64,000 nucleotides of DNA, taken from the NCBI RefSeq assembly GCF_020405205.1, contig NZ_CP084469.1, forward strand, positions 496,001 through 560,000. The letters run 5' to 3'. Positions 36,478 through 39,828 of this stretch are shown here, piece by piece; within the stretch, counting starts at the first letter, position 1, and each line of letters opens with the position of its first letter. Source of the stretch: Natrinema salinisoli (GTDB taxonomy: Archaea; Halobacteriota; Halobacteria; Halobacteriales; Natrialbaceae). The notes beneath the pieces are model-generated. The model ran no database searches. It worked only from the letters and a program-made list of their open reading frames with translations, and was not told the DNA's origin. The position numbers were made by a program, and so were the translations under genes.

Positions 36478-39400
36478 TCAGCGGGCGAGTCCGACTGCCA
36501 GACCGATCAGGACGAGTCCGACCATGGCCGCGCCGCCGCCGATCACGGCATCCCCAGTGAGCGCAGCGATACTTCCGGCGACGACACCCGCACCTCCGCC
36601 ACCGGCGACGACCGAGGCCGAAAGCATCGGCTCGGCGGCCATTCCGTCCTCCATGCTCTCGAGATCGGCCCGGATCGCCTCGATCTCGTCGCGCTGGCTC
36701 TCCGTATTCTCGCGCTCGGCGAGCTGTGCATCGACCGCGTCGATGCGTTGCTCGAGGCCGGAAAGCCGCTCGGTGACCGTTCCCAGCCGGTCGTCCAACG
36801 AATCGACATCGCGATCGAGCGTCTGTACCGCCGATTTGTCTGCAACTGAGCCGATGCTTCTGGCGAAGCCGTCGTGGTCCGATCGCAGCGAGTCGAGGCG
36901 GTCCTCGATAGCTGAAACCTCGTCCCGGATCGTCGCGATATCCTCGTCGCTCAGGTCCGAGTCGGCCGTTCCGTCGACCTGATCGGTGACGGACTCGAGC
37001 TCGCCGCTGACGGCATCGATATCGGCCTCGAGCCCCTCGAGTGTCGACTCTATTGCCTCCAAGCGCGCTTCGTGATCGGCTAGCCGCTGTTCGTTGTCCT
37101 CGGCTCGCCCAGCGGTCTCGGAGAGGGTTTCGCCGAGGGACTCGGTTTCGTCCTCGAGATCGGTCTCGAGAGCAGTGATGTCCGCCTCGAGTGCCGTCCG
37201 AACGTCGTCCACTCGACCGTCGAGCGTCGTTTGAACCTCTTCTACCCGGCTGTCGAGCGTCGTTCGAACGTCGGAGACTCGGTCTTCGAGTTCGCCGTCC
37301 AGTTCGTCGACGCTTCCCTCCAGTGCCTCGAGATCCGTCGCGATCGAGTCCACGTCGTCGGTCACCGTTTCGGCGTCGATTCGCTCGACGGTCGCCTCGA
37401 GCCCCGCGAGATCGTCCTCGAGGTCCTCGGTCGCCGTCGCGATCTGTGCCTCGACGTCCGTGACCGTCTCCTCGATCTGCGTTTCGAGCGCGTCCGCGGT
37501 CGATTCCAGCTTCGATTCGAGCGCCCGGACGTCTTCGTCGACCGTCTCGAGGTCGTCCGCGAGTCCGCCGACCGCGTCCCTACTGGCGGCCCGCGCTTCG
37601 AGGTCGTCCAGCGCGCTCGACGCGCCCGATACCGTGTCTTCGAGATCTGCAACCGCCTTCTCGAGGGTTTCCAGGTCGTCCAGAACGGCGTCGACCCGTT
37701 CCTCGTCCGCGGCGGTCGCCTCGAGGTCGCCGATCGTCTCCCGAACGGTATCGACATCGGTTTCGAGCGTCGCGATCCGGTCGTCGACCGTCTCTCGAAC
37801 GGCAGTCACCTCGTCGTCGACGGCCGCGATCTCCTCGTCGATCGTCGCTTCGACGGTGTCGAAGCGCGCGTCGGTCCGCTCGGAGTGCTCCTCGAGCCGG
37901 CCCGAAACGCCGTCGATTCGAGTGGTCACTTCTTCGACCCGTTCCGAGACACTGTCGATACGCGTCCCTGTTTGATCGATATCGTCCTCGAGGGCCTCGA
38001 GGTCGTCGACCAGCTGCGAGACGCGGTCGTCTACGGCCTCGAGTCCCGCTTCGGTTGCCGCGGTCGTCTCGAGATCGTCGAGGTCAGTTCGAAGGGTCTC
38101 GAGATCCGCATCGACGGTTTCGGTGCGGTCGGCAACGGCTTCGAGATCGCTCGTCAGTTCGGTGACTTGCTCCTCGAGATCCTCCCGCTCGCCGGCTGCA
38201 GTCGTCTCAATGGTTTCGATCTCGTCGTCGAGCGTGCCGACATCGTCCGCGAGGTCCGTGACCGTCTCCGACAGCGCATCGAGGTCCGTATCGACGGTTT
38301 CCGTCCGGTCTTCGACGGTCTCGAGATCGGCCGTTAGCGCGGTGAGTTCCGCTTCGAGCCGCTCCCGGTCGTCGGCCGCGGCGGTTTCCACAGCCCCAAG
38401 GTCGTCGCCGAGTTCGCCGATATCGTCCGCACGGTCCGCGAGCGCCGCCGACAGCTCGTCGAGCTCGTCGTCGACGCGCTCGATGTCACTCTCGAGGCTG
38501 GCGACGTCGTCGTCGCTCGCGTGCGCTTCGGCATCGGCCTCGAGGCGTGCGAGGTCGTCCGCGATCGATTCGAGACGATCGTCGAGTTCGTCGACGGCAT
38601 CGGACGCAGCCGTTCGGTCCTCGACGTATTCGAGCTCCTCCCGGAGGGACTCGATCTCGTCGTCGCGGTCCGCGAGCCGATCGAACAACTGGTCGATGGC
38701 GTCGTCGCTGCGGTCGGTCGTCGCGTCGGCCGCTGCCGACCCGTCGAACGCGAGTTCGGTCGCTCCGTTCGCGTCGGCCGTCTCGTCCGCGCTCGAGGAG
38801 TCGTGCGTAGCGTCGGTTTCGGTGCCGGAGTCGGATTCGGACCAGGTGACCGCTTCGTAGGCCTCGACGTCGTCCCGAGCGGCCGCGAGCGCACCGCTGG
38901 CAGCGCTCGTCGCGGGGTCGTCCGCCAGTCGCACGCCGCGGACCGAGAACGGGAGGGGTGCCGCGTCGAACCGACCGCCGACCAGGAACTCGACGCCCTC
39001 GATCGCGCCCTCGCCGGCGATCGAGATCGGAACCGACAGCCCCTGCTGGACGTCGCTCTCGTCGGCCTCCGCTCGGATCGCGTCGATCAACTCGCCTATC
39101 AGTGCGTCGTAAGCCTGTGCGAGCGCGCTCTCGATTCCACCTGCCGCAGCGTCGGGATCGAGCGCGAACTCCTCGAGCACGCCGGCGACCTGCGCCGGCG
39201 CGTGACCGGTTTCGCCGGCCGCGCGCTCCACGATCCACTCTCGTCCCTTGGCGAGGGAGACCGTCAGTGCCGGCACGCCGTAGTACGCGAGAGTGGCACT
39301 CGTCGTCTGCGAACCGATGCAGACCCCGAGGCCGGTGTAGTTGTCGGCCTCGAGGAGGTCGTAAATGACCGCGAATCCGGTGCTGATCGGCGTCGCGTCG

Positions 39401-39828
39401 AGTCCGCGCGTCGTCAGTACCGACTGGACGGTGTCGCGGTGTCTGTCGGTCGGCGCTGCTGTATCCACGAGCGTTCCCGGCGTCGTATAACAGAGTCGGC
39501 CATCCGTGGCGTCCTCGATCACGTCTCCGACGAGCAGATCCAGCGCGGCCGTCGCGTGCGCCGCTGTGTCAGTCGCGAGAACGCCGTCAGCGAACAGCGG
39601 CTCCGGCTCTTCGTCCGTTTCCGCCGCAACCGCTCGAGCGTCCCCGCCGACTGCGTACGTGGTTCCGTCCGCCTCGATCGTCCGTCCCTCCCCGGAGAGT
39701 CCGGCCGCATCGAGCGCATCGTCGTCGACCGGTAGCACGACCGGCGGGACCGATTCGATCATCGGGCCGTCGCCCGCGTCAGTGACGGCCCTGATCGCTT
39801 CCGGTCCGATATCGAGACCGTAATTCAT
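36478..39828 (-). CDS. Actin-like ATPase head fused to a giant coiled coil and membrane hairpin
   Basis: This 1116-aa acidic protein has three parts. Residues 1-310 look like an actin/FtsA/MreB fold: phosphate-1 MNYGLDIGPEAIRAV, phosphate-2 YTGLGVCIGSQTTSATLAYY and adenosine-like ISIAGEGAIEGVEFLVGG. After a Ser/Thr/Asp linker (about 325-375), residues about 375-1060 are an almost unbroken coiled coil (ETVEDRTETVDTDLDALSET and similar units). The last 55 residues are Gly/Ala-rich, with hydrophobic stretches ASVVAGGGGAGVVAGSIAAL and AMVGLVLIGLAVGLA: a membrane hairpin. The start at 39828 coincides with the actin fold. A cytoskeletal or cell-shape scaffold is inferred; an SMC-like label would be misleading because no ABC ATPase head is present. 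Confidence 0.85.
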   Translation of the reverse strand: MNYGLDIGPEAIRAVTDAGDGPMIESVPPVVLPVDDDALDAAGLSGEGRTIEADGTTYAVGGDARAVAAETDEEPEPLFADGVLATDTAAHATAALDLLVGDVIEDATDGRLCYTTPGTLVDTAAPTDRHRDTVQSVLTTRGLDATPISTGFAVIYDLLEADNYTGLGVCIGSQTTSATLAYYGVPALTVSLAKGREWIVERAAGETGHAPAQVAGVLEEFALDPDAAAGGIESALAQAYDALIGELIDAIRAEADESDVQQGLSVPISIAGEGAIEGVEFLVGGRFDAAPLPFSVRGVRLADDPATSAASGALAAARDDVEAYEAVTWSESDSGTETDATHDSSSADETADANGATELAFDGSAAADATTDRSDDAIDQLFDRLADRDDEIESLREELEYVEDRTAASDAVDELDDRLESIADDLARLEADAEAHASDDDVASLESDIERVDDELDELSAALADRADDIGELGDDLGAVETAAADDRERLEAELTALTADLETVEDRTETVDTDLDALSETVTDLADDVGTLDDEIETIETTAAGEREDLEEQVTELTSDLEAVADRTETVDADLETLRTDLDDLETTAATEAGLEAVDDRVSQLVDDLEALEDDIDQTGTRIDSVSERVEEVTTRIDGVSGRLEEHSERTDARFDTVEATIDEEIAAVDDEVTAVRETVDDRIATLETDVDTVRETIGDLEATAADEERVDAVLDDLETLEKAVADLEDTVSGASSALDDLEARAASRDAVGGLADDLETVDEDVRALESKLESTADALETQIEETVTDVEAQIATATEDLEDDLAGLEATVERIDAETVTDDVDSIATDLEALEGSVDELDGELEDRVSDVRTTLDSRVEEVQTTLDGRVDDVRTALEADITALETDLEDETESLGETLSETAGRAEDNEQRLADHEARLEAIESTLEGLEADIDAVSGELESVTDQVDGTADSDLSDEDIATIRDEVSAIEDRLDSLRSDHDGFARSIGSVADKSAVQTLDRDVDSLDDRLGTVTERLSGLEQRIDAVDAQLAERENTESQRDEIEAIRADLESMEDGMAAEPMLSASVVAGGGGAGVVAGSIAALTGDAVIGGGAAMVGLVLIGLAVGLAR

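Follow-up and report, generated by a model that had tools for sequence, protein, structure and literature searches.

Does an open reading frame on the minus strand of the window (a 64,000-nucleotide stretch of the Natrinema salinisoli genome) encode a new class of archaeal actin, or has a known actin been put to a different use? The ORF (36478..39828; all features given below lie on the same minus strand) is intact, running from an ATG at 39828 to a stop at 36478, and encodes 1116 aa. Its start agrees with that of canonical volactin (MNYGLDIG vs. MAKGLDVG), and an in-frame stop lies shortly upstream of the start in several homologues. The protein and its long homologues are hereafter called long forms. 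Computation bears out the outline given in the initial annotation, namely an intact gene, an actin fold, a very long coiled coil, and a C-terminal hydrophobic hairpin. The actin-fold domain (residues 1–318; 38875..39828) is followed by an acidic linker (residues 319–380; 38689..38874) that contains a conserved TELxFD-like motif, and by a coiled coil (residues 381–1061; 36646..38688), into which the linker sequence DDAIDQLFDRL leads. The protein ends in a Gly/Ala-rich hydrophobic hairpin (residues 1069–1116; 36481..36624), a putative membrane anchor.

The N-terminal domain is not unrelated to the described archaeal actins. Residues 1–317 match Pfam PF25216 (Volactin) over the full profile (positions 1–321 of 321; E 3.6e-126; 421.5 bits vs. 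a cut-off of 35), and the salactin profile PF25229 was not among the domain matches at E <= 1. Volactin (VolA, HVO_2015, PF25216) has been reported to form dynamic filaments (available text of PMC10869688). The N. salinisoli genome holds two volactin-family genes, the long form and a canonical volactin of 343 aa located ~74 kb away, which share about 34% identity. Canonical volactin (~340 aa) has neither the coiled coil nor the membrane segment, whereas long forms have 575–1313 aa and are predicted to be membrane-anchored. In a maximum-likelihood tree, 38 long forms comprise one clade (SH-aLRT 100; bootstrap 100) that lies outside the canonical volactin clade and is its sister when the tree is rooted on phage sequences, a topology that fits one old duplication. 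Profile match and tree position make the long form a second subfamily of volactins, paralogous to the canonical one, and not a wholly new actin class. The architecture itself had been described as having no counterpart among known archaeal actins, and this part of the claim stands within the literature covered: no coiled-coil or membrane-anchored volactin appears in its passages on volactin and salactin (supplements, subscription papers, and preprints being outside this scope), although the domain belongs to a known family.

The phylogenetic spread of the gene, which the initial annotation had proposed to determine, was surveyed in 391 Halobacteria genomes, with open frames over 600 aa counted as long forms. 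The long-form profile matched 233 of these genomes (E <= 1e-6), mostly via canonical volactin. The long form was found in ~75 of the 101 Natrialbaceae genomes sampled (an approximate count, the listed matches not having all been opened). Outside this family, five genomes from two others carry it (G058, G172, and G266; G060 and G284), and none was found in viral contigs. All 80 genomes found with the long form also carry canonical volactin. Three Natrinema genomes (L226, L227, L228) show an empty site, with the same zinc-ribbon and PEP carboxykinase-like flanks and nothing between them; the long-form gene is therefore dispensable and can be lost cleanly.

Fold prediction of the N-terminal region, another proposed check, recovered RNase H-like actin subdomains. 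An earlier AlphaFold2 model built on nine long-form sequences was poor (pLDDT 63.6), and the addition of 33 phage volactins to the window protein and eight other long forms (42 sequences in total) gave a good model (pLDDT 91.4; pTM 0.90). This model shows the complete actin fold made of two RNase H-like subdomain pairs, but details of the degenerate loops described below are less certain than the overall fold because the alignment leaned on phage sequences. When the model was compared to known structures (Foldseek and VIA-align 2), the best PDB matches were MamK (Z 27.0 over 290 residues), BeeR (25.1), MreB (~24.5), FtsA (23.8), and actin (~23.7). At the sequence level, a PDB search using the domain alone or the long-form profile returned no actin match, and only a canonical-plus-phage volactin profile reached MamK. 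The comparison with FtsA, MreB, PilM, and volactin that had been called for thus puts the domain in the volactin family, with MamK and MreB as the closest structures, FtsA as a further match, and PilM less close.

The claimed coiled coil of ~700 residues is confirmed by a stretch of 681 residues with 0 prolines and a strong hydrophobic periodicity (peak at 3.53 residues; power 1.31 vs. a maximum of 0.36 in shuffles), and 25 homologues behave in the same way. As one straight continuous helix, the coil would span ~100 nm; among long forms, it ranges from 129 to 883 residues. Matches of the coil to DUF7310 and to SMC/Rad50-type proteins were taken as generic coiled-coil similarity, with DUF7310 not exceeding its cut-off in the N. 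salinisoli genome. The Gly/Ala-rich hairpin could also be substantiated: the last 48 residues consist of a pair of hydrophobic segments that, like the coil-plus-hairpin architecture as a whole, is present in 40 of 40 full-length long homologues, and the hairpin matched no further protein in 21 genomes.

Our leading, still tentative, reading of this architecture is that an ATPase-degenerate actin paralogue, anchored in the membrane, serves to tether or cap filaments, most likely those of volactin. Alternatively, the coils could bundle to form a meshwork beneath the membrane, similar to intermediate filaments, with the actin domain acting only as an oligomerisation head and volactin not being a partner. 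The long coil, its very variable length, its strong heptad periodicity, and the lack of a conserved partner gene adjoining the long form would all suit a self-standing scaffold of this kind, but we regard it as rather unlikely given the occurrence of canonical volactin in every genome with the long form and the purifying selection on an actin domain that has kept its fold. Across eight long-form pairs, the dN/dS of this domain is 0.16–0.33 in all but the closest one, where it is 0.51; the domain is therefore under selection and not decaying, and the genes have stayed intact. Judging from these ratios, the domain is constrained, though far less than canonical volactin, which is 95–99% identical among 12 sampled sequences and beside which the long-form domain evolves fast.

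All three hallmark regions of the actin ATPase had been thought present, and this did not withstand comparison with other volactins. The phosphate-1 motif LDIG (residues 5–8; 39805..39816) retains its Asp, with GT changed to GP, and this residue (Asp6) is kept in 36 of 38 long forms. The Glu of the motif INE in canonical and phage volactins aligns with MamK E143, the catalytic glutamate. All 12 canonical and all 11 phage volactins have Glu at this position, against none of the 38 long forms, which have K, T, R, S, P, A, or Q; in the window protein the residue is Thr150 (39379..39381; aligned with Glu152 of canonical volactin and Glu143 of MamK). The phosphate-2 loop GLGVCIGSQTTSATLAYYG (residues 166–184; 39277..39333) is degenerate (CIGSQTTS vs. 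SFGAGMTN in canonical volactin), with Gly174 replaced by Glu or Asp in 17 of 38 long forms and Gly176 changed in 34 and kept in four. Also degenerate is the adenosine motif ISIAGEGAIEG (residues 268–278; 38995..39027), in which GG has become AG and one residue is lost: the first Gly is Ala in 29 of 38 long forms, one residue is deleted in all of them, and Gly275 is kept in nine. The change at the phosphate-2 Asp position alone says little because canonical volactin already has Ser there.

Long forms lack the conserved Glu of canonical VolA, and its phosphate-2 and adenosine glycines are eroded in them. The initial annotation had held that loss of nucleotide-binding residues from homologues would speak against it; in the long forms, Asp6 is largely retained, the Glu is absent, and the glycine loops are eroded. 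By alignment, the nucleotide site of the long form is degenerate, and residual ATP binding is possible because Asp6 is so widely kept. A domain that still binds ATP, though in a changed manner, and builds membrane-bound filaments of its own, as FtsA does, would be in keeping with this Asp, with the full actin fold and FtsA among its matches, and with the dynamic filaments reported for canonical volactin despite its Ser at the phosphate-2 Asp position (available text of PMC10869688). Yet the replacement of Glu in every long form, including by K, R, T, and P, the altered Gly174 and Gly176, and the fast evolution of the domain compared to nearly invariant canonical volactin make such a still-active actin improbable.

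The gene surroundings give no partner. The long-form gene is monocistronic, with a PEP carboxykinase-like gene (assigned from its sequence, not by profile) upstream in divergent orientation and a zinc-ribbon ORF and an MFS-like transporter downstream in convergent orientation; these neighbours reflect vertical synteny, and no conserved functional neighbour was found beyond them. The idea that the protein is an adaptor for another cargo (chromosome, S-layer, archaellum, or chemoreceptor pole), its actin domain being a generic protein-binding module like PilM, draws on the presence of PilM and EutJ-type actin-fold adaptors among the structural matches, but it is the least probable account, since the domain is closest to MamK and MreB, the whole genome contains no PilM (PF11104) profile match at E <= 0.001, and the neighbourhood offers no cargo hint.

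In almost all of the 38 haloarchaeal loci, the gene immediately before canonical volactin, on the same strand, encodes a DUF7139 membrane protein (e.g., L029:498-1400), and a small membrane protein is encoded directly upstream of phage volactin in most of the viral contigs L079–L158 (e.g., L098:2661-3008 and L116:2669-2974). Because both adjoin volactin genes, an association with membrane proteins looks like a general trait of the family. This suggests that volactins as a rule act together with membrane proteins and that the long form has an anchor built in. The DUF7139 protein is a possible volactin partner, and the small phage-encoded protein a candidate membrane anchor. The cytosolic tail of the multi-pass DUF7139 protein has two conserved copies of a VDDQxxxLKxLK-like motif. 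The linker motif DDAIDQLFDRL was considered as a copy of this tail motif and rejected, as many chance sites in the same proteins rank well above it. The small phage-encoded protein (~100 aa) has a hydrophobic segment in its N-terminal part, and its C-terminal tail, like DDISSAANKLAQLKK, is conserved; it bears no family name.

Volactin filament tips are reported to be bound to the membrane, and the available text suggests binding factors without naming them (PMC10869688); in the volactin literature found, as far as its accessible text goes, no anchor for these tips is known. In Natrialbaceae, the long form is a candidate membrane-binding factor of this kind. As a tether or cap, its actin domain would have turned into an ATPase-degenerate binding module, while the C-terminal hairpin would insert into the cytoplasmic membrane, leaving both of its ends on the inner side, and the coil would dimerise and serve as a spacer of variable length. 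The actin domain may dock onto or cap volactin filaments, or assemble as a static oligomer, and filament ends or bundles would then be held off the membrane by a fixed distance. The observations that lend support to a tether or cap are computed ones (the full PF25216 match, the actin fold, the loss of active-site residues, the single origin, the shared coil and hairpin, and purifying selection), and the general link of volactins to membrane proteins and the presence of canonical volactin in all 80 long-form genomes also count for it, although this co-occurrence is confounded by descent because canonical volactin is present in all the Natrialbaceae genomes sampled. The monocistronic gene, the absence of a conserved functional neighbour, dispensability, and the possible residual ATP binding count against it. 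Moreover, among the 391 Halobacteria genomes, the families in which no long form was found include that of Haloferax volcanii, the species whose filament tips were seen in contact with the membrane, and its tips must therefore be held by something else. A narrower version, in which a dedicated, membrane-anchored and ATPase-dead paralogue receives or caps the ends of volactin filaments and a lineage-specific coil spacer (~20–130 nm) sets the distance, is possible but on the doubtful side. For the membrane-linked scaffold that had been proposed, an anchor, cap, or tether is more plausible than a self-sufficient ATP-driven filament.

MamK and MreB, the closest solved structures to its domain, are ATP-driven filament formers, and to our knowledge neither has a built-in long coiled coil or a C-terminal membrane hairpin, whereas the long form has a built-in long coil and a C-terminal hydrophobic hairpin. 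FtsA likewise ties an actin fold to the membrane via its own C-terminus, as the long form is predicted to do; it uses a short amphipathic helix and has a 1C subdomain, in contrast to the hydrophobic hairpin that follows a coil of hundreds of residues in the long form. Salactin (PF25229), also a haloarchaeal actin-fold protein, is a separate family, reported in chromosome partitioning (available text of PMC10746226), and no PF25229 match is listed for the long form. A volactin paralogue with a rod and a predicted membrane hairpin makes archaeal actin-membrane attachment directly testable. If the tether reading is true, it would be a clear archaeal case of a duplicated actin turned from a motor polymer into a fixed attachment, an actin tether built from an actin, conceptually akin to the actin-related proteins of eukaryotes.

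Volactin-family actins also occur in at least 203 viral contigs (IMG/VR; e.g., L079–L158), with 35–38% identity over the full length and PF25216 E-values down to 1e-69, and had no PHROG family match. Two huge-phage records (485 and 595 kb) encode them as well (LR745208.1 337426-338391; LR756511.1 548792-549799). Among canonical volactins, one gene (G383:C54:57721-67544) is apparently in two pieces ~8.8 kb apart (residues 1–102 and 96–321) and looks as if interrupted by an insertion. Three genomes (G143, G237, G293) have two full canonical-type copies each, on different contigs, and G143 carries a split third copy.
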